This document shows, piece after piece, positions 5,501 to 63,481 of a stretch of 64,000 nt of DNA (position 1 is the stretch's first letter; each line of letters opens with the position of its first letter). The notes beneath the pieces are model-generated. The model did not search any database. It was not told where the DNA came from and saw only the letters and a program-made list of their open reading frames with translations. This DNA comes from Carallia brachiata. Its lineage: Eukaryota > Streptophyta > Magnoliopsida > Malpighiales > Rhizophoraceae. The stretch lies in contig JADCRB010000011.1 in NCBI GenBank assembly GCA_021464245.1, positions 1,821,226-1,885,225 on the forward strand. The letters are read 5' to 3'. The translations under genes and the position numbers were made by a program.

Positions 5501-7678
5501 AGGTACTTCATGAGCAAGCTCTTGTGCTTTTGGCTTGTTCACGTTGATTTGGAGCTATTAATTCTCTGGTCCTTGGTGGTGTACATGTGGTTATTTTAGA
5601 TGAGGTGATTGTCATTCCATGTATTGTATTTATTATATGCAGGAAGCAGTCAAGAAGGTATGCAGTTGGCAATATGCTAACTGCATTGATCTTTGGGTTT
5701 CATTTACATCTATCAATGTACGTGATTATGATCTTCAGGATTTGCTTTATATGCTCGTGCAAATCATAAATGGAGTGGCAACGCTGTTTCCAGGGCCAAG
5801 ATATTTGCCATTAAGAGTGAAATGCATTCAGTGGCTGAATAATCTTTCTAGTTTTAGTGGCATTTTTATCCCAATTGCGTCCTTAGCTCTGGATATTTTG
5901 GAATATAAAATTGACAAGGTGGGATGGAAACCTGGTAAAGACTTCAACTTCTCATCGGCGATAAAGGTCAGTAATAGAGTTGTTATTAGTTGTTATTAGT
6001 TGCTTTGAAATGTGGCTTTTGCTTCATGTCCTTTCTGGCTTAAATGGGATCATCATTCAACTAGCAGCATGTTTTTTTTTTTTTTTTTAATCTTCTTTGT
6101 GCTTCAACAATTTTGATTCCGCTTTGTGTCATCTCTTTAGCATAAAATTCACTATATATGGTGTATTTGATTGTGGACTTGTGCAGTTACCAAAACGCTG
6201 GCTAAAATCTCGAAACTTCCAAGAAGCATGTCTTTTTTCTGCCATTGAATTGCTCGTGGCACACTTTGCTCAATGGAGCTACCATATTTCTTTTCCTGAG
6301 CTGGCAACTGTTCCACTCATCCGTTTTAGGAAATTCCATGAGACGACTACCATTGAGGGCTTCCAAAGGGTGGCAAAGCGTTTTATTGATCAGGTACAGG
6401 ATGTTCTTGAAGAATGCAATGTTCTGTTTAACAACTTAACTTGACAGACAGCTTCCTTCTGCTTATAGGATACATGAATTACATATCAGTTAGTCTTCTC
6501 TTTGGCCTGCGTCTGTCACAATGCTGGAATGATGTTGTAAATTTCTCTCAGTTATTAAGTTTGGATGATATTAGTTGTCCCACTTCTATTGGAAGTTTTG
6601 GCTTCCATAATATCAATCATACCATTCAATGGATGCTGGAATGATGTGCTTTTCTCTCAACAATGTGGATGGAAGGATTTGTGACGCTTATTAGAGATTT
6701 TTTTGATTCACACTGTAGGTAGAGCTGAACATCGAGTTTGTGCGGAAGAAGAGGGATGAGGTTGCCTTTTCACCCAAAGACCAACAACTTGTCGAATCTT
6801 TTCTTCAGGTTTGGGTGGTATTCTTTTATTTTTTTCTTTTGTCATGGCTGATGACACTTTTTTGGGGTTTTATAAAAGCAGTTTAAACTCAGCTTGATGT
6901 TTGATTGATTGTGTGCAGCTTGAAAAGAGTAGTAGCAATGCTCCATTTAAACAATATTACAGAAGTGTCATGGAAAAGGCTGCGGCTAGGAATTTGCTTC
7001 TGGATAATAAATTTAGGTGCACCTTTAAATTCCTTTTTTGACCTTTTATTTTTGCATTTGACGTTTAGTACTTTGCATTAGTGTGATTATTCATATAGAA
7101 CACCCTCTATGGCATGGAAACCTTTTGATTTAAACATTAGAGCTTTTTACTTATTTTGATAGCATCAGGAACTTAAATGCCAGTGCTTAGGCGTTGAGGA
7201 TGCTGGATTGAATGTTAATTATGATCTACAATTGGATATGGATGACAAAATGCCATCTCCTTTTTGATGGTGTTCCGGGACATATCAAAAGCGGACACAA
7301 AGTACAGTTACATAGGAGTGCGTTGCTGGGTTCTGATATAGCATTGTTTTTCCTACTCTGAAGTGACTCCTAACTATTCCATTTGGGTAAAAAATCTGTC
7401 GAGTAGTGGTGTTTAAACTTGGAATTGGTTTTTCTTAATATTGATTTAAGTGCTTTCTGTGGTTGGAAGCACACCATATGGTGTCAGGTTGTATGTTAGC
7501 ACACGGTTGTGCCCTGAAGATTGTCAATTGCCATACTTTCGGTAATTCTTTTCGGTAGTGATGATAGTGGTACAGTTGTGATGATGATGATGAGAAATGG
7601 TAAAGCTGCCTTTTGGTAATCAACCTATGATATTGATGCAGTTTGACGGAGCAGAAATCAAAAAGAAAGAGGCAATAA
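2580..7678 (+). CDS. NOC2: NOC2/REBELOTE-family nucleolar complex protein, 13 exons
   Basis: Nucleolar protein of the Noc2p family, which works with Noc1/Noc3-type partners in assembly and export of pre-60S ribosomes. My splice model joins exons 2580-2688, 2807-2864, 3132-3240, 3337-3388, 3501-3595, 4197-4265, 4400-4909, 5203-5502, 5643-5966, 6187-6393, 6719-6808, 6919-7016 and 7642-7678. All introns are GT..AG and the frame stays open for 685 codons. The N-terminus MGKLGKKARKFAKKNLQSVL is the family hallmark and fixes the start; it is very basic, fitting nucleolar targeting. An acidic stretch (DEDD, DDSGSD) follows in exon 3 and another in exon 7. The Noc2 domain covers roughly residues 270-590, with recognisable blocks such as WQYANCIDLW and PRYLPLRVKC. 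The C-terminus is basic (KSKRKRQ). Exon 2 (58 bp) is needed to keep frame. I see no break, so the gene looks functional. Splice sites are inferred by eye. Confidence 0.93.
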
Positions 7679-11726: not shown

Positions 11727-14700
11727 TCATAAGATCCGTGCTAATATACTGAATAGACACTCTTTGTCACCTTTTGAGTATTTGTCGTTCTTGGAGAAGA
11801 ATACCTTTGTAGAATTATCACAGTAAATTTTCAACGGCTTGGTAATGGTGTCAACAACCCCTAGTCCTGAAATAAAGTTTCGCAGCCATAATCCATGAAT
11901 AGTAGCCTCAAAACATGTTATAAATTCTACTTCCATAGTGGATGAAGCAATGATAGATTGTTTCGCACTTTTCTATGATATCGCTCCTTCAGCTAATAGG
12001 AACAAATAACCAAAAGTGGACTTTCTGCTATCAAGGCATCCAGAAAAATCTGAATCCAAGTATCCAATAACTTCTAAAAGGTTGGATTTTCTATACATGA
12101 GCATGTAGTTCTTTGTTCATTGTAGGTACCTCATCACTTTCTTTGCAGCTTTCCAATGATTCATTCCAGGATTACTTTGATATCTACCCAGCATTCCGAC
12201 TGCGAAGCTGATATCTAGTCTAGTGCAAGTTTGCAGACACATCAGGCTACCAACAACAGAGGTACATGGGATTGACTCTATTGCCTTGTGTTCCACATCA
12301 TTCTTGAGACACTGCATGAGACTAAATTTGTCACCCTTTTTTATGGGCGCAATCCCATGTGAGCATTTATCCATATTAAATCTCTCTAAAATTTTCTTGA
12401 TATAGCCTTTCTAAGACAATCCTAACATTCCTTGTGATCTGTTACGGAATATCTCTATTCCTATCACATATGATGCCTCCCTCATATCCTTCATTTCAAA
12501 ATTCTTTGAGATAAAATCTTTAATCTCACGCAACATACTCAAGTCATCAGTAGTAAGTAAAATGTCGTCAACATATAGGACTAGAAAGATGAACTTACTC
12601 CTACTGATCTTTTAGTATATACACTGATCAACAGTGTTTTCCTTAAAACCAAAAGATGTAATGATATCATTGAACTTAATATACCATTGTCGAGAAGCTT
12701 GTTTCAATCCATATATTGACTTTTTAAATTTACACACCAACTATTCTTTTCCTTCTATGGAAAAACCCTCAGGTTGATCCATATAAACTTCGTCTTTGAG
12801 ATCTCTATTAAGAAAGATAGTTTTCACATCCATTTGATGCAACTCTAAATAATACTGAGCCACCAATGCCATAATTATCCTTAATGAATCTTTTTTCGAG
12901 ACTGGAGAAAAAGTTCATGTATAGTCAATGTCGCTCTTTTGAGTATAATCCTTAGCAACAAATCTAGCTTTATGTTGTTCGATATTGCCACTTTAGTCGT
13001 GTTTGGTCTTAAAGACCCATATACAACCAACTTTTTTACAACCTTCTAGTAATTTGACAAGATCCCAGACTTTTGTTCTTTTCCATGGATTTTAACTCTT
13101 CTTTTATGGTATCAACCCATTTTTCAGATGCAGTACTTTCTATTACTTGTGAAAGCGAAACTGGATCCTTATTGATTCCAATATCGAAATCTGACTCTTG
13201 CAACTAAACCACATAATCATTGTGAATAGCTGATCTCCTTTCCCTTTGAGATCTTCTTAATGCTACTTCTTGTGGTTCAGGTGCATTAGTGATTGGTGGG
13301 TTAGTTTCTTCACGGAGTACTTTTTCATCCAAATGTTCTTCCATTTTTGGAACATTTGGTATTGTAGTAGATGAAGGAACTGTTATGGGTAAATGAACAT
13401 TTATCCTAATTTCCTTTATTTCCACCTTTTGACATTCATTACTCCCATTAACCTCGCCATTTTCAACAAATCTTGCATTTCTAGCTTCCACAATTCTTAG
13501 ACTATGGTTTGGACAATAAAATATATACCCTTTAGACTTTTCTGAGTAACCAATAAAGTAACCATTGATCGTTTGAGAGTCTAACTTCTTTTCATATGGA
13601 TTGTAAATCCTCGCGTCCGCTGGGCGACCCAAAACATGCAGGTGCCTTAAACTAGGTTTTCTTCTTGTCCACAGTTCAATAGGAGTACTTAATTAGATAA
13701 TTTGCAGTTTTGAGTGCATAAATCCACAAAAATTTGGATAGAAAGGAGTTACTCATCATACTCTTGACCATATCCATTAATGTCCAATTATGCCTTTCTG
13801 CCACACCATTTCGCTGAGGTGTGCTTGGTATAGTATACTGTACACATATGCCATGACTTTTGAGGAATTTCGCAAATAGACCTAGACACTGTCATGATTC
13901 ATTATATTTGCCATAATATTCACCACTTCTATCGGATCTTACGATTTTTACTTTTCTGTCTAATTGCCTTTCAATCTCCTTTATGAATACCTCGAGGGAA
14001 TCTAATGATTAAGATTTTTTATGAAGCAAATAGACATACTCATAACATGAAAAATTATCTATAAAAGTGATAAAATATTTTTCTCCATTAAGAGTTAAAG
14101 TGTCAAACGATTCGCATATATTGGTGTGTATAATTTTAAGAAGCTGGGTGCTTCTTGTGGCTTCTTTCTTATTGTGTTTAGTTTGCTTTCCCTTAATGCA
14201 ATCTACGCACATTTTGAGATCAGTAAAATCTAGATTCGGTAGAATATCATTACTTACTAGTCTCATCAATCTTTCTCTGGATATATAACCCAGACATTTA
14301 TGCCACAAGTAAGCAGAATCTTCATCCATCGTGCTATGCTTAATTCTAGTATGATGTGCATGAAGTAAGGATTCAACAAACACATTATCAAGTTTCAATT
14401 TATATAAACCATCAATAAGAATACCAAAACCAATAATTTGAGTATTCTTATATAAATTGAAACTTCCACATCCAAACTTAACGTTAAACCTAGAATTATC
14501 CAATTTAGAAACAGAAATAAGGTTCCTTGAAACTAAAGGTACATAAAGAGTCTGTAATAGGTCTAAATGATAGCCAGTATCTAAGAACAAACAATAAGTC
14601 CATATGCCTTCAATTGGAGTCCTCATGCGATTTCCCATAGAAAGAAAATTTTTAGTTGGGTTTGTGGTTTGGATCGTAATGAATCCCTACATCATATTAG

Positions 14701-40411: not shown

Positions 40412-42775
40412 CTATGGTGGAATGGCTGCTGATATGCTTTTTCGTCTCTTAACAAGTGCATTCATCAACTTAATGTAGGCAGATTTATGTAAACTAATGC
40501 CCTTCACTGCAGATTCTTGAAAGAATTGCATTGCATCCTTGTACATCCCCAGATCACAAAGCTCATTAATCTTTTGCGAATAAGCAAACAACTCTGGATC
40601 AGTTTCCTCAGGATCTAGGGTGCCAACGTGTTCTCCCTTGTGCAACAGTGAGGATTGGGCATCTAGCTTTCCTCTTTCCACAATTTTTTCCATGAACTCC
40701 TCTGCATCTTTCATCCTACCTGCGTCAGTAAGGGCACCAAGAATGGCATTATATGTATAAATATCAGGCCCCAGTTTCCTTGCTTCCATTTCTGCATAAA
40801 GATCAAATGCTTCCTTGAATCTTCCTTCTTTGCAAAGGCTTGATATTATGGTGTTGTATGTAACTGAATCAACTTTCCCTTTTGAAGCCCATTTATCAAA
40901 GAGCTTCAGAGCCTTTTCAAGCATATTCTCCCTACAAAGTCCACGGAGAAGTATATTACAAGTAAAAATATTTGGCTTGAAAGATTTTTTAACCATTTGA
41001 TTGTGAAACTGAAATGCTTTCTCAACTTGCCCCTCCCGGCAGTATCCGTATATGATTGTATTGTATGTAGTTTCATCTGGGACCAAACCATTCCCAAGAA
41101 GCTCATTCATTTATCTATTGCTTGATCAGTTTTTCCCACTTGGCATAACCCTCCAATGATAGTGTTATAGGTAACAACAGTTGGAATTATCTCTTTATCC
41201 TTCATTTCATCCCAAAGCTCGAAAGCTCTATCCAATTCTCCAATTTCACAATATCCCTTCATCAGTGTTCCATAGCTGATCTCATCAACAAAATAACCTC
41301 GCTTACTGGCAGTACTAAGCAACTGATATGCCTCATCAAGATTTCTCTCCCTACAAAGTGTACGAAGAAAGACATTGAGAGTGAAACTATCCATCTTCAA
41401 ACATTTTTTTCCCATTTCATTCATCATGCTGAATGCTTCACTCATCTTCCCAGCCTTACAGTAACCATTTAGCAGCGTGTTGTAAGTAACATTGTCCGGT
41501 GAAAACCCCTTTTTCCCATCTTAGTAAGGGTTTCACTTGCCTCATCCAGCTCCCCTCCTTAACATACCACTTAAGCATTATGTTATGCGTAACTTCATTC
41601 AATTTCACTCCCCTCTCTCCCATCTCTTCAACCAACCTAAATGCCTCCAAACTGCTACCACGATCAAAACATCCATTAATCAAAGTGTTATAAGTAACCA
41701 CGTCAGGCAACAACTTCAAGTTCTCCATCTCATCTTTCAACTTCAATGCCTCCTCAAGCCTAGCCTCTCTGCAGAACCCGTCGATCAGCACATTATAGGT
41801 CCAAACATCAGCCAACACGTTATTCTGTGCCATTAGTTCAATCACATTGGCCGCATCCTTCAACCAACCCAACTTACAATACCCAGAAACCAAAATGTTA
41901 TACGTACACCTATTTGGTGCCAAACCATTTGTTTTCATGTCCAACAGCAAATCCCTAGCCTCGTTCAACAAGCTTTTCTTTAAAAAAGCATCCAACAGCG
42001 TATTATATGTGATAGCATCCGGCAAACAACCAAACTCCCCCATATTACGGAGAAGCCCTTTTGCCTCTTTGAACTTGCTCTCCAAACAACACCCACGAAT
42101 CAAAATATTAAAAGTAGTGGTCGTAACATCGATATCAAGCTTGATCACATCACCGAAGATGGCTTTGGCCAAAGAAACGGAATGCGAAGAAGGGTACCTG
42201 ACGAGAGCACTGAGAAGGGTGTTGCAGGTCAGCACGTTGGGCTTGAGGCGCAACCTCTTCATCTTGTTAAAAATCTGAGCCGCATGGTGGGGCTTACCAG
42301 AGGCCACGTAGGCGCTGATGGACAGGTCAAGAAGAGCCTTGGGGATTCTGCGGGGGATATAGGTGGGATCAGGGCGGAGGATTTGGCGGTGGAGGGAGTC
42401 GTGCTTGTCGGCGGCGATGAAGGAGGTGAGGAGGGACTTGGCGTCGGGGAACTTGTTGAAGGCGAGGACGGAGGGGAGCAGGGAGAGGAGAGGGAGCGGA
42501 GAGAGGGCGGCGACGGAGGGAGGGAGGTGGGACTGGGCCCATTTGTACAAGGCGATGAGGTTGCTGGTCCTGTGGGCTAGGTTTTTGGAGGACAGCAATG
42601 ACAGGAGGATTTTAGGGTTGTTGGAGAGGTAGGGGATGCAGGCGTCCAGAGATGGGGAAGGGATTCTAAATTTCTCCAAACTCAGAGTTTTGGTTAGTGT
42701 TTCTATCACTTGTGCGTCTGTCATGGACTTTGAATTTGGGATACTTGGCGTCGCCATTCTCCTTGTTTCATCCAT
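40412..42775 (-). CDS. P-class pentatricopeptide-repeat protein, broken by three frameshifts
   Basis: PPR proteins bind organelle RNA one base per repeat and steer its processing, stability or translation. Start ATG at 42775 (a second, 18 nt on, at 42757); stop at 40412; span 788 codons; intronless, as usual. About 160 N-terminal residues without repeats are followed by a run of 35-residue P-type repeats (for example VVTYNTLINGCFDRGSSLEA, DVWTYNVLIDGFCREARLEE), so the P class is clear and no E or DYW domain is seen. Three one-base shifts break the frame: near 41551-41558 (GGGG run), near 41506-41517 (GGGAAAAAGGGG) and at 41107-41112 (GATAAATGAATG, one A too few). All lie in base runs and the protein is otherwise well kept. 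They may therefore be sequence errors, or a very recent pseudogene. Organelle targeting is inferred from the family only. Confidence 0.9.
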
Positions 42776-42967
42776 CCATCAGTGTCTTTGTGTCCCACAA
42801 ATTTTAAGGTTTCGGAAACATTTATTTGGTGATTTTGAGCTTAGAAAGAAAGAAACTACCGTTGTTTCTACCTGTTTTTGCAGATTGCAGAGTAAAGCCG
42901 TTTGCTTTGCCGGTAATATGGAGAGACAGAAATGGAGGCCTCGTATTTTATTTCAATGGAGAAACAC

Positions 42968-48049: not shown

Positions 48050-51000
48050 AACTAATTATTAATTTATTTAATTTGTTTTACAATTGAAAAAAATTTTGGA
48101 ATACTTGATTAAAAGAAAATTTTGGGATTTTCAAAAATATGTTCGAATGCTTTTTACAGTAATCCTACGCACTAAATTTTTGAAAATCACGTTTATAAAA
48201 ACGTTTGGATGATTTTTATGATGATCCCTGCCGTCAAAGGGATTTTGAAATTTTTGAATATGACTTGGATGATTTTGGGGTAATCCTTACTACCGAAAAG
48301 ATTAATCTTGAAAATTTTTGACATGATTGGATGATGAAAAGATTAAATTTTTGACGTGACCGAAAAATAAAAAATAAATTTTGACGTGACCGGATGAAAA
48401 ATTAAATTTTGACATAACTGGATAATTTTGGGGTGAACCTTTGAGCTAAAAAGATTTTGCTTTGGAAATTTTTGACATTATTGAATGATTTTGTGGTGAT
48501 TCTTAGTACCGAAAAGATTGACTTTGAAGATTTTTGAACATGACTTAGATGATTTTAGTGACCCTTCGCACTGAAGTTTTAAAATTTTGATTTTTGAAGA
48601 ATATTGGGATGATTTTTACTGTGATTTATGGGACCGAATTTTGAAAATGATGTATTGAAAAATATTTGGATAATTTTAATGGTGATTTGTAGCACTGGAA
48701 TTTAAAAGAAGAAAACATTGATATTTGGGCATTTTTCAATAATTCAAAAGATGAATTGGACTATTATGAAACTATGTCACTTTTTAAACAAACAATATCA
48801 ACATTTTTTTGTGTTTTTTTTTTTGAAATAAATTACTAAAATATTAGACCAATATATTACTAACTTTGAAAGTAGACCACAAATCCATACTAACGAAAAT
48901 TCTCGTGGGCTTAATTAGTATAACAAGAAAGGCAAGACATATTTGTCAAAACTCCCAAATCAACAACCCAAATGAACAACTAGTTTAAATATCTCAATTT
49001 GCTGAATTTTTAAAAAGAACCAAAGATTGTCGCTAAAAATTTAATTTCTTTTACTAACACGGTATCAGCTCGATAACTGACTATTCTTTCTATCTTATTT
49101 CATTATTTGTTTTGTTAGAAATTAGAATAATAAATCAATTAACTACTAACTTTAGACTACAAACTGTCTAAATTATACAAATCAAAGGATCTTAGAGACT
49201 TTATCAAGACAACTCAAGATACAAGGTTCACTTTTTGATCTTTAGACTTAAACATTCAATTTCAACAGCTTATTTATCTTGCTCACATTACAAATCCTTT
49301 GTTTGGAACCTTAAAAACCAAAGTTGTCCCAAGAAACTAATCCAAATAATCTTTGCACCCAAAACTATTTTTCTCTGTTTAATTTTTTTCTTTTAGGAAA
49401 AGCGTTGTCTTTAAATTTTTTTGTTGTCATCTAAAAATGAATCGGGTCCAAAGGTATATACAGAATTATTGAATTTTATACTATTATCTAAAAGCAAATT
49501 GGGTCTAATGGTATATACATAATTACTGAATCAAAACTGTGAGACTATTTAAACACTAGAATATTTCAAAAGCTTTTAACATTAATTGGGATCGTTGTTG
49601 CATTTGAATAGTTAAAGTTAATTACATGAATAGTAAAGAAATTGACCTAAATAGATAATTGTACATAAATTGCTATAAACATAAACAAATAAATAAACAA
49701 AATACAACAAGTTATACATGTAATGAACATAAATTGCAGTAATACAAACAAAGAAATTTGTTAAAAATTAAACAACAGGCAATAAAGGATATAAAATTGA
49801 AAATTGAAAAAATAAAGACTATATGTGTGTGTGTGTACCTCTGTGCATGTGCGTATGTTAAAATAATGAATATTTTTTAGTACAGAGTTTGTATTTAGTC
49901 AGTTAATTGTTAAAAAAAATGAAAAACACGGGTCAGATAACATTGCACAGGGTGCAAAGCACCTTAACCACAAGGTAGGCACCTTAGAAGGATTTTAGTT
50001 AGTCTGTTAATTATTAAAAAAAATGAAAAAAACACGGTCAGATGACACCGCACGGTGTGCAAAGCACCTTACCCACACAAGGTAGGCATCTCTATGAGGA
50101 TTTTGGTATTGAAATAATAAATATAATTATATTAAAATATAAGTGACATGAAATAAAGATAAATAATAATGACAAAACAAGAAAAAAAATGCAATAAGTG
50201 AAATAAAATCAAATTATGACTTATAGGAATGTGACTTTATTACCTAAGTCCTCGGTTTACAAGAAAGATGAGAATTTTTTACCACTACATGGATAACTTT
50301 TTTTAAGTTTTTGCTTTTGTAATAAACTGATAATTAACATGGTTTAAAACTAATTAATTTGGGCTAAAAAAAAACATACAATTGCATGGTTTCAATGTAT
50401 ATTCACTCTTTCTGCTTTTGCTTTCATTCTCTCTCCGTGACTCTATTCCTTGCTTGACTTTGCAATGCCCAATTTATGGGCAAACATTTTAACTTGCTGC
50501 GCTATTTAATTTTTAATGTTTGGGCTCTAATACAGCTGAAATAGTATGCTAATATTTTAATTCTTGAGCGAGAGGCATGAAAGATTCAGCATTTTTCGCT
50601 GACTTGTTGACGATAGATGATTTATAAAGTTGAATTTTTTTGAAGACATTCGAATAGGATCTCCTCTTTTACTCTTTTTCTTTCGAATATGAAATTTGGG
50701 CTGATCTTGTATCATTATTTTTTACACTATGTGTAGCCCTTTTGTATTGCCACATTTATCATCATTGTACTATTGCTCATCGGCATTAATAAGAAGAGGT
50801 AGAGCAAAATGGATCGTAGAGCCACCCATTACTCCTATTGTCTTTTTTTTTTTTTGTCTTTACTTTTTTTTTTTTTCACAAATGCTACATTCTCAGTGCA
50901 TGTTGACTGCATTTAGTTACAAATATGTATTGCATAATAGTAACAACTAATCAAAGGATAAAAGCATATAGTCCTTGTATCAAGCCAGAAAAAAGGAGTA
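48050..51000. other. Gene-free DNA with local repeats
   Basis: 48110-48710 is a degenerate run of units around 'gattttgaaatttttgacatgattggatgattttggggtgatcc', period roughly 60-75 bp. 49431-49555 has a short duplication around 'ggtatatacagaattattgaat'. 49826-49838 is (TG)n. No gene recognised. Confidence 0.5.
49890..50102. repeat. Tandem duplication, unit about 107 bp
   Basis: Two adjacent copies, each running from 'tttagt(c/t)agt(c/t)(a/t)gttaatt' through 'aaaaaaaatgaaaaacacgg' and 'tgcaaagcacctta.cca' to 'aaggtaggca'. Moderately diverged. Confidence 0.75.
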
Positions 51001-52902: not shown

Positions 52903-52999
52903 TGATAAGTCTAATGTTTCTATATATTTTATGCATATTTTCATATATAATTTGAGTTTATTTATGTAAATATTTTGAATTTTGGTGGATTTTACTTTG
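52903..52999. mobile_element. Possible LTR fragment, left part, split by the SIRE-like element
   Basis: TGATAAGTCTAATGTTTC starts a sequence of the kind seen at the start of some Ty3/gypsy (Tat/Athila-like) LTRs. It is cut at the CTTTG duplication and would continue at 60172. The assignment rests on general appearance only. Confidence 0.35.
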
Positions 53000-54464
53000 T
53001 GTTGGAAAATTCACACCCCATGCATACATTATAAAATTGTTACTAAGTGTGAATTCATGTTTTGATGATGAGTGTTTTGATAATGAGCTATGAACCAATC
53101 TAACATAAGTACGAGTGAATTTCATTTGTATGTTCTTCAAGTATACAATTCAGGTTCAAGAAGTCTAAAGAGGTACACATATGCCATCTTACACGTGCAT
53201 GGAAGTGCATGGAAGATAAATATCACATTGGGCCTTATTAAGCTACTATCTTATAAAGACAGCATAAGAGCAAATCTGTTTGGACAGATTTCAGGTACTA
53301 AACTCACTCACTTGAGATATATTTTGGGCCTAAAATATATATATATTGGCAGGACTATAAGTCTAGTTTCAAATGAGTTTGGTCGTGCAATTTTTGGAGC
53401 CCTAGAGAAAAACGTATGAATTTTATACCAAGAGGGTGCAAGCTGTCAGGAACTTTCAGTGCACATGGAGTGAATTGCAACGGCTGCCTAGAAGAGCACA
53501 CGACGAATTTGAATGTGAAATTTTGTGTGTAGATTCTTTGTTCTGTCTATTAATCAATGCAAAAAGAATCACATCAAAATTCAAAGCCATCTGCAAGATA
53601 TTACCATTCTACTAAACGTGTGCAGACTGTCTAACGGAACTTTAATGTCTGTATTCAAACATTTATTGACTATGCTATACTCATTCAAAAATAGTCAATT
53701 TGGTGGGTAGAGAGCTCTGACAGTCTAAAATAACAAAAAAAGTAATCGCAATTTTCAAGCTGTCTGTATCAAGTTATAGCCGTTCAACCAGAGGTGTCAA
53801 ACAAGAGAATCAATGCAAAGCTGTCAAGAGGGCAACAACAAGTTATGCATGTGCAACTCATGGCAACGCTCTACAAGTGCTAACCTATCTTGCAGCTATT
53901 TAAACATCACTTGAAGATGTTTTACTAGTGAAGAAAGTTATATTCAACCACTGTACAATCTCTCTCAAGGCAAAAAGGCTTTCTTTACTCTAAGTGCTTT
54001 TATTGTAAAACTAGCATTCAAGCTAGTAAGTTTCATTTGTATTGTAATACATTGTGAGAATAGGTGAGAGCTCTCAAGTGGGACTTGTGAGGATCATCTT
54101 GTAGGAGTTAGGGTTGAACTCCAAGAAGGAAAACCTAAAAGAAAAGGGAAAGTGGTGTTGGCACGTGGGACTTGTGCCAACAAGCGTTTTAGAAGGCGGA
54201 CGCAAGGGTGTTTGCGGAGTCTTCTTGTAAACTGTACGTGGTGATTGGTGCGCCCAAAGGCACCCTTATAGTTGAACTCTCAAGAATCTCCAATAGAGGG
54301 ATTGTTGAGAAGACCAAGGACGTAGCCATTTGGTGAACCTTGTAAAAATCGGTATTGTATTTCTTTCAATCTCTTGTTTACATTCATTTGTAGAAATTTA
54401 TATTTGAGGATTTCATTGGTAAAGCCTATTCACCCCCCTCTAGGCTTCACCCTAGGGACCAACA
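53000..54464 (+). repeat. 5' LTR of the SIRE-like element
   Basis: 1465 bp. It matches 58707-60171 with only scattered substitutions and small indels, for example in a (TA)n run near 53340 and at 53535. Short open frames within it are not genes. Confidence 0.96.
53897..53904 (+). promoter_or_regulatory. TATA-like box in the 5' LTR
   Basis: TATTTAAA about 570 bp before the LTR end, kept in the other LTR at 59604-59611. It is a plausible core promoter for the element's transcript; the start site is not proven. Confidence 0.4.
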
Positions 54465-54466
54465 TT

Positions 54467-54478
54467 TGGTATCAGAGC
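54467..54478 (+). other. Primer-binding site (tRNA-iMet)
   Basis: TGGTATCAGAGC, an exact match to the usual initiator tRNA-Met primer site, two bases after the 5' LTR. Confidence 0.92.
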
Positions 54479-54519
54479 TTAACCTCACTTGTAAGGCTTA
54501 ACATCCTTGAGGGATCCCC

Positions 54520-55970
54520 ATGGAATCCTCATTTAATGAAAACAAGAGACCTTTCTTTGATGGTAGTGATTTTCAATACTATAAAGATCATATGGAAAGT
54601 TATCTTAAATTTAAGGGGATGAAAGTTTGGCAAAGTGTAGAAGAGGGACCATATGTTCCTAAGGAAGAAGTTGTTGATGATAAGGGAGTAAAAACCTTGA
54701 GAGTAAAACCAATAGAAAATGGGATGAAGAGGACTATAAGAAAAACCAAATAGATGAAATAGCATATTATTATTTGAAAACGTCCATAGCTAGAAGTGAA
54801 TATAACACCATCAAACATTGTAAAAATGCTAAGGAAATTTGGAATACATTGTGTCTCTCAAATGAAGGGACATTAAAAGTTAGGAAAGTTAAACTTGGCA
54901 TGCTTATGAAAGACTTTGAACTTTTCACTATGAGACCAAATGAATCGGTTAAAAGTGTGTATGATAGACTCATGATTATTGCTAATGGACTAACCGATCT
55001 TGGCAAAGTGTTTGGAAAGGGTGAACTTGTGCAGAAATTAATGAATTCGATGAATGAGGAATACGAAATGAAGATTAATGCCATTGAAGAAACTCACAAC
55101 GTGGAGGAGCTAACCATGGAAGAGTTACTTGGGTCCTTGATAACTCATGAGATCAAACTCAAAAGGAGAAGTGCATTACCACAAGTAGAACCATCCTCAA
55201 AAAATGTAGCACTCATGGCCCTAGATGACGATGAAAGTGACAATGAGGTAATGGATCTTCCCTCTTATGAAGAACTTAGAGAAGCTTTTGATGATTTATT
55301 GATCACTTTTAAAAGGAAATGTAAACAATATAAAGAGCAAAAGAAAGCATGTGAAAAACTTTTGTTAGAGAAAGATGAAATTGTATTGGAAAATAGTCTT
55401 TTAAAAGAAGAACTTGAAAAGGCTAAATTAGATCATAAATCAACTTGTAGTGAGTTAAATTTTGTTAAACAAGAGCTTGCAATATCTAAAGAGGCTCCTA
55501 ACATCAAAGACAATTTACATCATGCTTTGGAAAAAGAAGTTGAGGACCTTAAAGAAAAGAATTTAAATTTAGAAAAGTCCTTTTCAAAATTCACATTAGG
55601 TAGCAATAAGTTAGATGAGATGTTATCTTGTCAAAAGAAATTTTTTAACAAATCCGGTTTGGGATACCTCACTAAAAACAAGACTAATCTCATAAAAGAG
55701 AAGAAAAATGTTGTATCATGTTTTTATTGTCATAAAGAAGGACACAAATTTCATGATTGTAGACTTAGAAGACCTAGTGATCCTAACAAGTATGTGTCAT
55801 CTTCTAAAGTTTGGGCAAAATCTAATAAATTCAAACAAGTATGGATGGTTAAAGATTCAATGAAGAAGAATGATTGTTGTAACATTGAAGGACCCAAAAA
55901 GATATGGGTACCAAAATATTCTACATCTTGTTTTGTAGGTGGAAAAGTACTTGAAGGCAACATATTTTAA
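54520..55970 (+). pseudogene. SIRE-like gag polyprotein, one frameshift
   Basis: Structural gag protein of the element. The first frame (ATG 54520) opens MESSFNENKRPFFDGSDFQY, then stops at 54752 because of one extra base near 54714. The second frame continues the same protein as KWDEEDYKKNQIDEIAYYYL and on to a stop at 55970. Parts in order: a UBN2-like capsid region (ending about 55200), an acidic linker, a long coiled coil rich in K, E and L (about 55300-55600), and a zinc knuckle CFYCHKEGHKFHDC (CX2CX4HX4C) near 55720. The C-terminal KKIWVPK is usual for this lineage. With the frameshift this copy probably makes no full gag. Confidence 0.92.
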
Positions 55971-56249
55971 AGAAGATGCCATTTGGTATCTTGATAGTGG
56001 ATGTGTCACATTTGGAGACAATGGAAAAGGCAAAATCATTGGAGTTGGCACTATAGGTAACAATGTATCGAGTTTTATTGAGGATGTTGCTTTGGTAAGT
56101 GGTTTAAAGCACAACTTAATTAGCATTATCCAAATGTGTGATAAAGGTTTTAAGATATTATTCAAACCCATGACTTGTGAATTATATGATCCCCATACTA
56201 AAGCATTGAGATTTGTAGGAAAAAGAATAAGTTGTGTAATGCATGTGCT
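55971..56249 (+). pseudogene. Protease and pre-integrase stub
   Basis: The frame reads AIWYLDSGC, the aspartic-protease active-site block, but jumps at once to VTFGDNGKGKIIGVGTIGN. The SRHMTG-type stretch normally between them is missing, an in-frame internal deletion. It continues VALVSGLKHNLISI.QMCDKG and ends near KRISCV, where homology to copia pol stops abruptly at 56249-56250. No later pol domain is present. Confidence 0.85.
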
Positions 56250-57000
56250 TGTTAAGACCCTAAGGTTTCGTTTTTTTTTGGTTTTGATGATTGCTAAACA
56301 CTGAGAGTTACTAATATGTTTATTTAAGTGTGTAGTTAAATGATTTAATCAAATAAACATCAATTGAAATGGAAGCAATGCTAGCATAGGGCAACTATTG
56401 ATATTGGTCACATTCAGTGTAAGTACTATCCAGTATGGTCAACTTTAAAAGGCTCGTTTGCTCACATGGAGATGAACTAGATAATGTGCTATATACGGTT
56501 AGAAAGATAATTCTGTCTAGTTTCTGAATTCGCAAGAATCATCTCAATTGGATATTTGTGGAGGAAGTTATAGTCTATGAACTGAAAGGTGCTCAATCTG
56601 TCAAGGCAGACAGGATCAGTCCACTTTAAGAGATGATTGCAACAAAATGGGAAGGAAATAGCTGTTGAGTTCTATATTCATACAAATATAATTCTGTCTA
56701 GTTTCTAAATTGACCAGATTCACGCAAATTGGAGTTCTGTAGAAGGAGATATTGCCAAAATACTAAAGGATGTACAGCCTGTCCCGTCCAGCAGGATCAG
56801 TCAACGTCCAGAAGACACTACGGCTAGCTGGAGTGGAATCAGACCATGATCTATACATGTATGAAAAGCTCTATGAGTCTACTTTCAAATGGGAAGAAAC
56901 AGGATATGATTTGGAGTTATACAGGTAGACTTATGATTGATTCTTTAAGAAGTGCCAGAGCTGTCCAATTGAGAAAGGAAACTAGCTTAAATTGGGTGTG
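56250..57000. repeat. LTR-like fragment with about 181-bp tandem units
   Basis: Begins TGTTAAGACCCTAAGG, a typical SIRE-class LTR start, directly at the pol breakpoint. Inside, a unit with 'aattctgtctagtttct' and 'ggatcagtc' occurs at 56509 and 56690, with a diverged third unit starting about 56869, so the period is about 181 bp. The matching LTR end was not found. The boundary on the right is approximate. Confidence 0.6.
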
Positions 57001-57328
57001 ATGCATGCTTAGATTAAAACAAATACATACTTCATTTTCAGGGCAAGATCCCAAGAACAACGTCTCACACACTTTCACAAGGTTTTACATTTTTCCCCAC
57101 GTCTTTATCTCAGTAGTACATGCAGACTTACCAAAATTGATAAGTACACAATTACAAGACAAATAACACCAACCACTTATTCATACATATTAGAGTACAC
57201 CAACCATGACTCATCCATGTACTATGCACTACAAGACAACATCCCTGCGCATACATACATTCCAGTAAAGCTTTGTATGTTGGAATCCATATTCCAACGC
57301 CAGAAAATGTCTTCAGATCTTACCCCTG

Positions 57329-57985
57329 TCAGTCGCTCCTAGGGGGCCTAAGGCGTAGCTCTAGATCCATAAAGCCCTCATTGTTCGGCAGGTTGGCAAT
57401 ATCAATAGTACCAGCATTTTCTTGTTGATTGAGATCGCCTAGATGAACAGGAAAGAGACTGAGTGTTTCTCTTTCTCCCTCACGAGAAGAGTTGACCGAT
57501 CTGCTTCTCACTGGAGTAATGCTTCCTACTAAGTGAAAATATTCATGGGAATTTGATCTCTGACCCACATCAAAGATTTCAAATGATAAATGGGAAATAC
57601 CTGGTGGCTGGCGATGCTGGTTGGGATTTCCTTGAGAAACAATTGTTGTGTTGGTGGAATGAATAACAGGAGGTGCTCTGCCTATTCTCACACTGCGCCT
57701 TCGGTTCTGGATCCAGAGTCTAATGTTACTTGGCTGAATTGGACCATATGGTCTCAACAGTGAGACAAGTTGAGTAAGTTGGCTTGATGTCGGACGAGCT
57801 TCTTCAATGCCATGAAAAATATTTTCCAAGATTTGTAATTGCTCCGGCACCGGTCTCCATCTGGAATTGGAAGAGTCTCCAGTTTCCAGGTTCTGATGGC
57901 TTGATGGTGGTCTCATTTTGTTGAACAGAAAGGTGAGTGAAAATTTTGAGACTCTGGATGATGAAGAGAAATTGAGATAATGCAT
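57329..57985 (-). CDS. WUSCHEL-related homeobox (WOX)-like protein inside the retrotransposon
   Basis: Uninterrupted ORF of 218 codons; a likelier start is the second Met at 57916 (MRPPSSHQNL), giving 195 residues. Residues 41-102 form a diverged WOX homeodomain: SRWRPVPEQLQILENIF in helix 1, RPTSSQL in helix 2, the GPI turn and a recognition helix NIRLWIQNRRRSVR. The family has N-V-F-Y-W-F-Q-N there, so F-Y is replaced by R-L and W-F by W-I, while W, Q, N and the basic residues stay. Residues 174-181, TLSLFPVH, fit the WUS-box (TLxLFPxx), and LELRL at 208-212 fits an EAR-type LxLxL repressor motif. Together these point to the WUS clade of transcription factors that act in stem-cell and organ initiation. 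It lies antisense to gag, where integrase and reverse transcriptase should be. Lack of introns suggests a processed copy. Whether it is expressed is unknown. Confidence 0.8.
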   Translation of the reverse strand: MHYLNFSSSSRVSKFSLTFLFNKMRPPSSHQNLETGDSSNSRWRPVPEQLQILENIFHGIEEARPTSSQLTQLVSLLRPYGPIQPSNIRLWIQNRRRSVRIGRAPPVIHSTNTTIVSQGNPNQHRQPPGISHLSFEIFDVGQRSNSHEYFHLVGSITPVRSRSVNSSREGERETLSLFPVHLGDLNQQENAGTIDIANLPNNEGFMDLELRLRPPRSD

Positions 57986-58114
57986 ATCTCCATTTATGTC
58001 TGACGATCCGCAATTTACGCCTGACTGTCAGCGGTAATAATTGCCTGGCTGTCCTCAACTTTCGCTTAACTGTCAGAAACTTGCGTCTGACTGTCTGCGA
58101 TTTACGTCTGACTG
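57984..58114 (-). repeat. Six-unit 21-bp tandem repeat upstream of the WOX-like ORF
   Basis: On the minus strand, units of the form CAGTCAGACGTAAATCGCAGA follow one another six times (one of them 24 bp, the last diverged). They end just before the first ATG of the WOX-like ORF and about 70 bp before the second. Repeated potential protein-binding words this close to a start suggest a promoter or leader element. The unit length is a multiple of three, so one frame through it reads TVRRK-type heptads, but I see no reason to call that a protein. Confidence 0.85.
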
Positions 58115-58185
58115 TGCGGCACGTCAACAACTTTTCTGATTGTGTGCCATGACAGCAACTTTTTTGACTAGGTATGCCATGTCAG

Positions 58186-58245
58186 CTTCCACGTAAGCAA
58201 TTGACTACTGAGATGGACTTCCACGTAAGCAATTTGACTGCGGTA
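58186..58245. repeat. Short direct repeat CTTCCACGTAAGCAA
   Basis: CTTCCACGTAAGCAATTGACT at 58186 recurs at about 58219 (CTTCCACGTAAGCAATTTGACT), within 200 bp upstream of the WOX-like ORF. ACGT is a bZIP-type core, so a regulatory role is possible but unproven. Confidence 0.6.
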
Positions 58246-58522
58246 ATATTTTTGACCTACTCATGAACTATTATTGAAGGTAATGATCTACATTGTATTT
58301 TTTGGTAACATAGTGACCAAATTTTGAATAAAGACCTTTTGATAGATCATTTTTTTAAGAAGAAAATTGGGCATGTCACACCCCATGCATTAGCATAGGC
58401 TTGATTGTCTTCATTTCCTTAATTTAATGATTGTATTTGAACTCTACAAGGCCTGCATTTCAAAGTTACTATAACTTATATGCTAAATTGTAAATGTGAA
58501 CTTGTGATACATGCATACATTA

Positions 58523-58706
58523 AGGGGGAGTCTTAATCTCTTAACCTAGTTAGCATTCACATTTTTTGTTTCAACCATTTTTATTGATGACAAAAAGGGG
58601 GAGAAAATTAAGAGCGTGTCATCAAGAAAGAGCATTTCTAGAGGAAGCTTAGATTAAGGGGGAGCATCTATTTTAAAGGTTTTGTCATCATCAAAAAGGG
58701 GGAGAT
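58523..58706 (+). other. Polypurine tracts, four AAGGGGGAG copies
   Basis: AAGGGGGAG occurs near 58524, 58596, 58659 and 58696. The last one (58693-58706) directly adjoins the 3' LTR and is the functional polypurine tract by position. The others may be duplicated or auxiliary tracts, as is common in SIRE-class elements. Confidence 0.8.
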
Positions 58707-60171
58707 TGTTGGAAAATTCACACCCCATGCATACATTATAAAATTGTTACTAAGTGTGAATTCATGTTTTGATGATGAGTGTTTTGATAATGAGCTATGA
58801 ACCAATCTAACATAAGTACGAGTGAATTTCATTTGTATGTTCTTCAAGTATACAATTCAGGTTCAAGAAGTCCAAAGAGGTACACATATGCCATCTTACA
58901 CGTGCATGGAAGTGCATGGAAGATAAATATCACATTGGGCCTTATTAAGCTACTATCTTATAAAGACAGCATAAGAGCAAATCTGTTTGGACAGATTTCA
59001 GGTACTAAACTCACTCACTTGAGATATATTTTGGGCCTAAAATATATATATTGGCAGGACTATAAGTCTAGTTTCAAATGAGTTTGGTCGTGCAATTTTT
59101 GGAGCCCTAGAGAAAAACGTATGAATTTTATACCAAGAGGGTGCAAGCTGTCAGGAACTTTCAGTGCACATGGAGTGAATTGCAACGGCTGCCTAGAAGA
59201 GCACACGACGAATTTGAATGTGAAATTTTGTGTGTAGATTTTTTCTGTCTATTAATCAATGCAAAAAGAATCACATCAAAATTCAAAGCCATCTGCAAGA
59301 TATTACCGTTCTACTAAACGTGTGCAGACTGTCTAACGGAACTTTAACGTCTGTATTCAAACATTTATTTGACTATGCTATACTCATTTAAAAATAGTCA
59401 AATTTGGTGGGTAGAGAGATCTGACAGTTAAATAAAAAAAAAAGGAATCGCAATTTTTCAAGCTGTCTGTATCAAGTTATAGCCGTTCAACCAGAAGGTG
59501 TCAAACAAGAGAATCAATGCAAAGCTGTCAAGAGGGAAACAACAAGGTATGCATGTGCAACTCATGGCAACGGCTCTAATATGCTGCTAACCTATCTTGC
59601 AGCTATTTAAACATCACTTGAAGATGTTTTACTTGTGAAGAAAGTTATATTCAACCACTGTACAATCTCTCTCAAGGCAAAAAGGCTTTCTTTACTCTAA
59701 GTGCTTTTATTGTAAAACTAGCATTCAAGCTAGTAAGTTTCATTTGTATTGTAATACATTGTGAGAATAGGTGAGAGCTCTCAAGTGGGACTTGTGAGGA
59801 TCATCTTGTAAGGAGTTAGGGTTGAACTCCAAGAAGGAAAACCTAAAAGAAAAGGGAAAGTGGTGTTGGCAAGTGGGACTTGTGCAACAAGCGTTTTGAA
59901 GGCGGACGCAAGGGTGTTTGCGGAGTCTTCTTGTAAACTGTACGTGGTGATTGGTGCGCCCAAAGGCACCCTTATAGTTGAACTCTCAAGAATCTCCAAT
60001 AGAGGGATTGTTGAGAAGACCAAGGACGTAGCCATTTGGTGAACCTTGTAAAAATCGGTATTGTATTTCTTTCAATCTCTTGTTTACATTCATTTGTAGA
60101 AATTTATATTTGAGGATTTCATTGGTAAAGCCTATTCACCCCCCCTCTAGGCTTCACCCTAGGGACCAACA
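58707..60171 (+). repeat. 3' LTR of the SIRE-like element
   Basis: 1465 bp, the partner of 53000-54464, followed by the CTTTG target duplication. Confidence 0.96.
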
Positions 60172-61513
60172 CTTTGGTTGGTTATTTTTATGTTTGTAGG
60201 AAAAATACACAAAACTCAAGTATTTCAAGAAATTATCGGAGACTTATCAGGTTTGGAGAGAGTTAGAAATGAGCCAAGAACTACAAGAACCAAACCAAAA
60301 TTTGGTTGGAAAGTTGACTTGTGGTTCAATTCAGGTAGAATTTAACAACTTTGGGCACTACTCATTTTTTCAGTTAAACTTACTTTACGCAAGACAGAAT
60401 TAGATGATTCTTAAACCGAATCGAAGCTAAAAGATAAGCTACAATTTTACTATTTTGACCAAATTCAGATTCTGCCTAGAATGGGTTGAGAATTTGGCCA
60501 CAAATCACAAGATCAAAATTGTCCAAAAACTTTCAAATCCTTTTTTAACTCAAATTTGAATATTTTAGGGCTTACACCTTTATTATTTTGAAGAGATATA
60601 AATATCCAAGTTACAAAATATTTTAAGGAGACTTTGGGGAGTCTTTTATTTTAGATGCAAGATAAAGATAATGTAAAGAGGCAAAGGAGGAGTGCAAAGA
60701 AGGAACGTGAAACCGTCAAAGACGAGTTTTTCACTTCCTTTTCTTCCTTCTTTATTTTTTGAACTCTATGATGTTTAACATTGGTTTATATTTACTTTTT
60801 AGCATGAGTGGCTAAAACCCTAACTAGGAGGAAAGCGATGTAGCCTAGTTTAGGGTTTAATTATTTAATTTTTGTGGATATTTATTTGTTCTTTTGATTA
60901 TATTGTAATTATTTGTTAAGAAATTGATTTGATTTATTTTGTTTTTAATTATGCTTTTATGATTAGTCACCATGAAATTAGTCATAGGATTTGTATTGAG
61001 ATCAATAAAGACATAATCGTGCACTAAATAAATAAATATATAAACTTTGTGTCAGACATAAGATAAGTTTATATGATGTCATTAAAATTTGATGTTCTTA
61101 ATGGGTTTGATATATCCTTGTGTGAGTTCGAGAGAAGATCACAAATAGATTGAATATGGTTATAGTTGCTTAACAAATCACTTTATCCACATAAAGGCAA
61201 TTAAAGAAGAATAATTGACATTTAAATCGATTTATCCACATAAATTGATGTTATTTAGCTCCTTCAAGGTGAAAATCTATAGCCTTGGTACCCTTTGTCT
61301 TGTGCTGAACTTTTAGTTAAATGCCTCTAGTTTTTAATTAGTTAAATCGCCTAAGTTAGTTTAATAATTTTGCTTTTTATTAATTTTTACAATCATCAAT
61401 TTTTTGTTCAAATAACTAGAATTACAATTAATTCTTTATTCCCTTGGGTTCGACAATTAGGATATTTACCAAATAATAATACTAGAAAAAGGTAATTATA
61501 AATTTTACCACCT
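60172..61513. mobile_element. Possible LTR fragment, right part
   Basis: Resumes the sequence cut at 52999. The end region 'cccttgggttcgacaattaggatatttacc' near 61440-61470 resembles the 3' part of some gypsy LTRs, which would make 52903-52999 plus 60172-61513 a solo LTR of about 1.4 kb. No target duplication was confirmed. No gene seen. Confidence 0.35.
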
Positions 61514-62181: not shown

Positions 62182-63481
62182 TGTTAGAATTTATTGAGTA
62201 TTGGTTTTAATACCCCATTATTGTTTGATGATTATTTATGATGACTATATATTCTGTATAATGATTGATCGATGATCGTTAGTACTTATTGTATTATCTT
62301 ATTTGTGTTAATTAGTTAGCTAGATGATTGAGGAACTTATATGGTATATATCCTTTTTTATTAGGACAAGATCTTTACATTTGAATTTGATTGAGCTGAC
62401 CATCTTTGTAAAATCTTGTAATATTTGTCATATCTCCTATATAAAAAAAGTTTTTCATGTGATTTTGTGAGATCATAGGTAAAGAAGGAAGTTTCCATGT
62501 GTTGAAAGATATAGTAGGGTAAGACCGGTCGACCTAACGAAGTCTGGGGTCAACCGAGTAATCAGAGAAGCAAGTGTGCAAAGTTACAGAAAGTCCATAC
62601 TGGTCAACCAGATGTAAAGGAAACAAAAAGTGAGAAGTTATAGAAAGTTTAGTCGGTCAACATAACGAAGTCTGGGGTCAACCGGCTAATCAAAGAAGCA
62701 AGTCTGCAAAATTACAGAAAGTCCAGACTGGTCGACCGGATGTGAAGGAAACAAAAATTGAGAAGTTATAGAAAGTTCAGGTTAGTAGACCTAAGGTGGC
62801 TCTGGTCGACTGATGTAGTTAAGAATCAAGATGGATAAGTTTCGAAAAGTTTTGGTTAGTTGACCAATGCAACTAGAAGGCTAAAGTATATAGTTATAGA
62901 AAGTTCGGGTCAATTGACCAAACAAGAGAGTTGACCAATACAACTGCGGTCTACGGTGACCGATGCCTCAATAGATAGAGCTTTTTCAGGAAGGATATAC
63001 TTGTTTTGGGAAAGAATCAATGTTGAATGGTAAGTTGTGACCTAGCTGCCTATAAGGAGGTAGAAAAAATCCTTGGTAGGTGTGGCTTTGTGATTGATAA
63101 TTTTTAAAAATATATTGTAAGGGTATGAGAAAAAGAAAGAGAAAATCAATGAGATTTTGAACTCAAATGAAAAGGTAAAAAGGAACAAGAGTGTTCTTGA
63201 GATCAAAAACTTCGCAAAAGCTTGTTGATTGTATGTTCAAGTGATTGTAAGGGGTTGTTAGACATAGGTTCCTAGTTGGAATCGTACCACTATAAATCAT
63301 GGTGTCATCTCTCCTGTCCTTATCTCTCATTTACTTTAGTTGCATTTACATTGTTTATTTATTATTGATTATCGATTATTATTACGACTAATAGTTTGGA
63401 GTTGAGATTGAGTGAACCGTTAGTGAGCGAATAAAAAAACACCCAATTCATCCCTCTTATTGGGCTATATCAAGACTAACA
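62182..63481. mobile_element. Solo LTR, 1300 bp
   Basis: Starts TGTTAG and ends CTAACA, the perfect inverted termini of an LTR. No primer site or polypurine tract adjoins either end, and copia pol coding continues on both sides, so only one LTR remains after recombination. Flanks TTTTT (62177-62181) and GTTTT (63482-63486) fit a decayed 5-bp duplication. Confidence 0.75.
62521..62800. repeat. Tandem units of about 129 bp with GGTCGACC words
   Basis: Inside the solo LTR, a unit running from 'ggtcgacctaacgaagtctggggtcaaccg' to 'gagaagttatagaaagtt' occurs twice in tandem and partly a third time. It is rich in small palindromes (GGTCGACC, GGTCAACC). Diverged relatives of the GGTC..GACC words continue to 62960. 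Confidence 0.8.

Follow-up and report, generated by a model that had tools for sequence, protein, structure and literature searches.

The window analysed here, a 64,000-nt stretch of Carallia brachiata contig JADCRB010000011.1, contains at 53000-60171 a Copia-type, non-autonomous long terminal repeat (LTR) retrotransposon, one copy of its family, which carries a WUSCHEL-type (WOX) open reading frame (ORF) antisense to its gag gene. The 5′ LTR (53000..54464) and 3′ LTR (58707..60171), both on the plus strand and 1465 bp long with TG...CA ends, differ by 21 substitutions over 1456 compared columns plus 12 indel events, corresponding to a Kimura two-parameter distance (K2P) of 0.0146. They are enclosed by the target site duplication (TSD) CTTTG, found at 52995..52999 on the left and 60172..60176 on the right. 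An exact primer binding site, TGGTATCAGAGC, which we take to fit initiator tRNA-Met, follows the 5′ LTR at 54467..54478 (plus strand), and the polypurine tract AAAAAGGGGGAG at 58693..58704 lies inside the element's own 3′ region (58381..58706, plus strand). A preliminary description of the locus had claimed intact ends on the basis of these same LTRs, duplication, primer site and polypurine tract, all of which we confirmed.

The gag gene, of Copia type, spans 54520..55970 (plus strand; first ATG at 54520) in two overlapping frames (54511-54753 and 54684-55970), reflecting a frame break near 54684-54753 in this copy. It matches Retrotran_gag_2 in Pfam with an E-value of 7.6e-26 and has a CCHC-like knuckle near 55720. 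The start of pol follows at 55939..56250 (plus strand), matches Pol_BBD (E = 2.5e-7), and ends abruptly at the inserted cargo, which begins near 56250 and joins the element's 3′ region near 58380. The left part of the cargo (56251..57010), in which no known protein domain was found, has an internal repeat (56500-56624 and 56681-56805, 70%) and weakly resembles the LTR. The flank upstream of the WOX ORF (57917..58380) contains short degenerate tandem repeats and differs by up to 14.5% between copies. Because diverged subfamilies of the family hold approximately 170-190 extra bases at 57010 and, in some, approximately 214 more at 58381, the cargo of the window copy is probably itself a deletion product. 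Between 56305 and 58706, we recognised no integrase, reverse transcriptase (RT) or RNase H among frames of at least 60 aa, only the WOX frame and short unplaced ones, which agrees with the absence of these genes noted in the preliminary description; Pfam was applied to the gag, pol-start and WOX frames (four coding frames), and ORFs of at least 150 aa were tabulated. Since no long frame for integrase, RT or RNase H precedes the 3′ LTR, the element is non-autonomous. The gag shape and repeated GGGGGAG tracts are, we presume, at most reminiscent of the SIRE lineage in an element that has no RT.

The WOX ORF itself (57329..57916, minus strand) runs from an ATG at 57916 to a stop at 57329 and encodes 195 aa plus the stop. 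Its homeodomain (57683..57865, minus strand) matches the Pfam Homeodomain model with an E-value of 6e-6 and is followed by a WUS-box-like motif, TLSLFPVH (57443..57466, minus strand), and a C-terminal EAR-like motif, LELRL (57350..57364, minus strand), where we take the WUS-box to be TLxLFPxx and the EAR-like motif to be LxLxL. The nearest solved structures are those of STENOFOLIA (E = 1.8e-8) and WUSCHEL (E = 2.9e-8), so that the foreign DNA at about 56250-58380 does hold the antisense WOX-type ORF that had been proposed for it, and as judged from the protein sequence its WUSCHEL-type identity is far above chance. A structure model predicted the three homeodomain helices with mean confidence (pLDDT) of 79-93 per block and low confidence elsewhere, and in a Foldseek search with it the homeodomains of STENOFOLIA and WUS ranked highest, one match being below E = 0.001; this agreement is not independent of the sequence comparison, because WUS proteins were part of the alignment from which the model was built. 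Upon inspection of the homeodomain, the recognition helix (helix 3) is altered in the window copy, reading WIQN for WFQN, and the window reads LRPYG where the most diverged subfamily retains the WUS-like LRQYG. A protein database search with the ORF gave 90 candidates, with none at E = 1e-3.

We searched the 337.5-Mb host genome with the cargo and obtained 302 first-look candidates, of which 40 were scored; merging of 71 rows by eye left approximately 40 genomic places. Around the cargo copies, 20 stretches of approximately 10 kb were taken for comparison, and the copies complete at both ends showed the same layout of LTR, gag, cargo, 3′ region and LTR. Truncation or rearrangement affects copies L010, L016, L021, L022 and L027, and further family fragments lie next to L024 and L026. 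Perfect 5-bp TSDs were found at 12 distinct sites (CTTTG, ATTTT, GCGCC, GAAAA, ACTTT, AAAGG, CTTAT, CCATG, CATTT, TACTT, AGAAT and ATATT). One of these, AAAGG, encloses L014 and L017 on contig C128 as a single tandem LTR-internal-LTR-internal-LTR unit, counted as one site, of which L015 and L018 on contig C49 are assembly duplicates. Among 18 copies compared, matching upstream and downstream flanks occurred only in the pairs L014/L015 and L017/L018. The family is mobile, given its many copies with the same layout at different sites and with different target duplications, and it is young, as the preliminary description had held, because the K2P across 13 LTR pairs ranges from 0.0014 to 0.043.

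Cross-matching gag with WOX places (coordinates merged by hand, tandem-array pieces mostly omitted, and the assembly duplicates on C49 and C128 still counted) placed an antisense window-type WOX 1.0-2.6 kb downstream in at least 65 of the 91 gag places among the matches listed, so that WOX replaces pol as a rule. At two others the WOX lay farther off, at 6.7 kb, with another element between, and at 19.6 kb. The remaining 24 had no WOX among the matches listed (for example C99:3862014, C1:3807212 and C3:1776858), and some of these have longer gag frames of up to 659 aa; they are relatives of the window element and candidate pol-bearing partners. No copy with both pol and WOX was seen among the 91 places in these matches. 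Non-autonomous LTR elements with gag and without pol are known as TR-GAG. The window family has the LTRs and gag without pol of such elements, together with several mobile copies, and retains Pol_BBD as a remnant of pol. We know of no TR-GAG with a regulator gene; no search for one was made.

Focusing on the ORF, we compared 38 copies, from which the duplicates L015 and L018 were excluded and among which a few others are identical in sequence. Eighteen were free of frame breaks and early stops and 20 were broken, some of the one-base breaks being possible assembly errors. Across all distinct changes, 107 nonsynonymous, 44 synonymous and 7 stop changes were observed against 107.3, 42.2 and 8.5 expected under the same mutation spectrum. 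Changes common to at least two copies leaned slightly towards constraint (24 synonymous against 18.0 expected, P = 0.04), and those common to at least four gave no clear result (9 against 6.7, P = 0.20). Deeper relatives, with 48-70% protein identity and the same ORF layout, include the arrays on C19, C101 and C136. Among the window copy, L040, L094, L095 and L096, the ratio of nonsynonymous to synonymous rates (dN/dS), obtained by simple counting on a scale where near-neutral recent changes would equal about 0.7, was 0.36-0.57 in nine of ten pairs and 0.88 between the window and L040. Because the deep pairs have low ratios but the recent changes are near-neutral, the ORF of the Copia family was probably constrained in the past and is drifting now, and in the window family it looks like a fading passenger. 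The preliminary description had proposed a mobile vehicle that could spread a meristem-type regulator. Its mobile half is borne out by the 12 TSD sites; its working regulator fits poorly with 20 broken copies out of 38, near-neutral change, and the altered WIQN, and a stronger case is made by the gypsy family described below, which lies outside the sequence open to that description. Degenerate window-type WOX ORFs also occur in tandem arrays, at C19:1604293-1611709, C101:458531-466536, C136:4140449-4143407 and L094, where the repeated unit is approximately 1.2 kb long and joins the WOX and the flank upstream of it to the initial 43 bases of the 3′ region of the element.

With the Arabidopsis WUSCHEL homeodomain as query, the host genome yielded 1369 candidates, of which 150 were scored, and the nine top-scoring places were real WUS-clade host genes located outside the window element (by eye, two WUS, two WOX1-like, two WOX4-like, and one each WOX2-, WOX3- and WOX5-like). 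Ten further places taken from the remaining matches all belonged to a different repeat, a Ty3/gypsy element exemplified by L048 and L049. In L048, whose 5′ end lies outside the slice examined, RT, RNase H, a second RNase H (RVT_3) and integrase follow in that order at L048:1319-4510, which fits what we take to be the Tat-like lineage with its second RNase H, and a WUSCHEL-like ORF lies in sense orientation at 5059-5679, approximately 0.5 kb after integrase. In L049, a shortened copy, both LTRs are present (792 and 768 bp), as is the TSD CTCTA. The L048 homeodomain retains WFQN and its tail TLPLFP and LDLELHL; the gypsy motifs TLPLFPEY (WUS-box) and LELHL (C-terminal) align with those of WUS proteins. 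A search with the gypsy ORF gave 2398 candidates, and the best 150 of these, which were scored, were 82-100% identical, with 19 at full score and 115 without a stop by eye. The gypsy family is apparently much larger than the Copia family, its size being given by first-look candidate counts (1369, 2398 and 1340) and not by confirmed copies, with real WOX genes included in the 1369. In the protein database, the best 15 of 267 candidates for the gypsy ORF were plant WOX or homeobox proteins or unnamed products, the best with 50% identity over 30% of the query, and an IMG/VR scan with it gave four pattern matches and no relatives. At E = 1e-5 the window cargo did not match the DNA of L048 or L049, and we rejected the idea that it is a piece of the gypsy element.

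The Copia-borne and gypsy-borne ORFs align over 215 aa with 34% identity (E = 8e-27) and have in common the motif QLQILE..F and their C-terminal layout. Both have a WUS-box and a C-terminal LxLxL, as WUS proteins do. The spacing from the W to the loop P of the homeodomain is 22 in WUS and in nine of 11 retrotransposon-borne ORFs, the other two being unreadable; seven other host WOX proteins have 21, and two WOX11-type references can be read as either 21 or 22. The host WUS genes encode the homeodomain and the WUS-box in separate open stretches, which we interpret from the sequence as exons; the retrotransposon-borne ORFs encode both in a single frame with no intron between. Because the introns are missing and the features are specific to WUSCHEL, both ORFs would derive from a captured, spliced WUSCHEL-class transcript. 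In a homeodomain tree of 67 columns with long branches, the retrotransposon-borne ORFs grouped together with support of 92/97, at a node that was not starred. In a small tree the host WUS genes fell near Hevea, but the grouping was weakly supported and also took in a Psidium (Myrtales) sequence; one of the host genes, L051, is 83% identical to Hevea over 121 columns. The lack of a Vigna match in a WUS search that admitted proteins of about 84-266 aa carries no weight here.

Very probably, then, the window element belongs to a non-autonomous Copia family with a captured and now passenger WUSCHEL ORF, part of a wider lineage of retrotransposon-borne WOX that includes the gypsy elements. The ORF would have arisen from a spliced WUSCHEL-class transcript caught in reverse transcription, and in the Copia family it would have come to lie, as a single antisense frame, in the place of the lost pol. 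For their movement these elements would rely on LTRs, a primer site and a purine tract of their own and, in some copies, on gag; RT and integrase would presumably come in trans from pol-bearing relatives. The ORF, once under protein constraint, would now be a passenger. In the large Ty3/gypsy family, by comparison, the sense copy after pol is often unbroken and its homeodomain apparently conserved by selection, and the protein would most likely bind DNA and regulate transcription of the element or the host. Transposition in plants has to take place in cells that go on to the germline, and WUSCHEL is active in such tissues. Meristem cells, which found the germline, would be a natural site of action for the gypsy protein, and we infer that it may serve its element there, in stem cells, as a DNA-binding regulator.

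Signs of purifying selection on the gypsy homeodomain appeared in two samples. The first comprised 22 copies chosen for protein score or open frame, a choice that favours conserved proteins; in it the homeodomain had 24 synonymous changes against 15.0 expected (P = 0.0017), and its changes common to at least four copies were 1 nonsynonymous and 8 synonymous against 5.6 and 2.6 (P = 0.0007), both results being among 16 uncorrected tests. To offset this bias, we also compared five copies picked by the DNA after the ORF, four of them from one subfamily: the homeodomain was open in all five, with 14 synonymous changes against 8.4 expected (P = 0.019), and the whole ORF from its ATG was open in two. 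Several points weigh against the reading set out above. For the gypsy family, these are the selection of conserved proteins in the larger sample, the number of tests, and the narrow make-up of the smaller sample, together with the lack of clear constraint after the homeodomain in the 22 copies (45 synonymous against 39.6, omega approximately 0.87, P = 0.15), the lack of a synonymous excess outside the homeodomain in the five (P = 0.30), and the finding that WUSCHEL-type binding sites were not enriched in the gypsy LTRs. For the Copia family, the antisense position of the ORF speaks against simple co-expression with gag, and the pol-bearing partner is a presumed one. For the link between the two families, the common origin depends on the 67-column, long-branch tree, and a clade of WUS with the retrotransposon-borne ORFs was not in the best tree and not rejected (p-AU = 0.21). 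We give a substantial minority chance to the view that the gypsy ORF is also a passenger, its open frames due to recent amplification and its constraint to the picking of copies: the 19 of 150 scored places at full score point to many very young copies, and the unconstrained remainder of the ORF, the frames broken outside the homeodomain in three of the five flank-picked copies, and the unenriched LTRs all fit it, whereas the 1:8 pattern of widely held homeodomain changes and the synonymous excess in five open, flank-picked homeodomains do not. The far-reaching proposal that the gypsy lineage adopted a WUSCHEL repressor as an env-position gene, selected for DNA binding and enabling the element to influence transcription in shoot stem cells, with the Copia family as a later, decaying offshoot, we consider unlikely. 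In the window LTRs, G-box sites were above shuffled sequences in the 5′ LTR, which has two; the single site in the 3′ LTR gave no clear excess, and TAAT was below shuffles in both.

As to how the two families came by their ORFs, a single capture with later exchange between elements is our first choice. Two independent captures of WUSCHEL transcripts, one by each family, would account for the difference in orientation and element class, for the missing DNA match between the window and L048 or L049, and for a protein identity of 34%; the clustering of the retrotransposon-borne ORFs apart from host WOX, with QLQILE..F and the same C-terminal layout in both, makes this the less likely course. It is very improbable that the window ORF is an unrelated antisense accessory ORF that merely resembles a homeodomain: the same antisense position before the 3′ LTR is occupied in Grande, RIRE2 and Retand, according to the relevant part of a review (PMC7264820), and the helix-3 signature is changed, but homeodomain, WUSCHEL spacing, WUS-box and C-terminal LxLxL occur all together, and the homology to the gypsy ORF extends over 215 aa. 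Taken alone, the window would permit a native WOX locus with misassembled LTRs around it or a one-off, single-copy capture. This reading, which the preliminary description had named as its possible refutation, is ruled out for practical purposes by the LTR-gag-WOX-LTR plan at 12 sites with different duplications, by the want of matching flanks beyond the two assembly-duplicate pairs, and by the nine WUS-clade host genes situated elsewhere; we give it next to no probability.

Parts of the preferred reading, a captured WUSCHEL ORF in mobile Copia and gypsy families, are known already, as far as the passages concerned go: an antisense accessory ORF in this position (PMC7264820), host-kind extra domains in gypsy elements (PMC9289625), and LTR-borne WOX in Vigna (PMC10714607). 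A meeting report of 2023 states in its passage on Vigna marina and V. riukiuensis that LTR-flanked WOX sequences have been amplified, with more than 1,000 WOX copies in V. riukiuensis, most of them lying between identical LTRs and bordered by target duplications (PMC10714607), much like the many LTR-flanked WOX copies described here. The element class, orientation and coding content are not stated in that passage, nor is any selection test, and a shared lineage cannot be told from it; Vigna belongs to the Fabales, whereas the host here groups near Hevea (Malpighiales) with weak support. The preliminary description knew of no described family with this cargo, which holds insofar as we found no fuller account of WOX-bearing LTR elements in the open-access literature beyond the meeting report, and falls short in view of Vigna itself. 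Grande, RIRE2 and Retand carry antisense accessory ORFs (aORF-3R) of unknown function, of TRP28 type in Retand (PMC7264820, PMC11963269), and in its section on such ORFs the review sees no host gene source (PMC7264820). As in those families, the antisense ORF is kept family-wide here ahead of the 3′ LTR; unlike theirs, the window ORF is WUSCHEL-derived and its element lacks pol. In orchids, Ty3/gypsy elements bear an AlkB RNA demethylase ORF, and a screen of 121 angiosperm genomes found extra domains including B3 and the LONELY GUY-type YgdH (PMC9289625). The main text of that paper had no word match to homeo-, WUSCHEL, PF00046 or Vigna. The gypsy family likewise has an extra host-kind ORF fixed, in this case for a homeodomain protein. 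Bs1 of maize is an LTR element with transduced host gene sequences, and transduced genes are described in the same review passage as having one or few copies, usually in sense to gag-pol (PMC7264820), whereas the window family has dozens of copies and an antisense cargo.

Beyond these accounts, our analysis describes how such elements are built in both the Copia and the gypsy class, shows that the window family has lost pol, identifies WUSCHEL-clade features in the ORFs, and gives an early indication of selection on the gypsy homeodomain, in what is probably a different host lineage. If a host lineage other than Vigna is involved, this would point to a habit older or more repeatable than one burst. 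The gypsy family, whose WUSCHEL-like gene is often unbroken and apparently conserved in its homeodomain, provides a natural experiment on whether transposons make use of a host's stem-cell regulator. Retrotransposon copies can also raise the apparent number of WOX genes in a plant genome.

Elsewhere in the window, a pentatricopeptide-repeat gene in two adjoining frames (40412-42778, minus strand) appears to be a normal gene of the host. Remnants of a further Copia element lie at 13204-14686 (minus strand), with gag_pre-integrase, Pol_BBD just below the cut-off, and SH3_retrovirus. Two-copy tandem repeats occur at 62526-62777 (128 bp) and 49895-50104 (104 bp).

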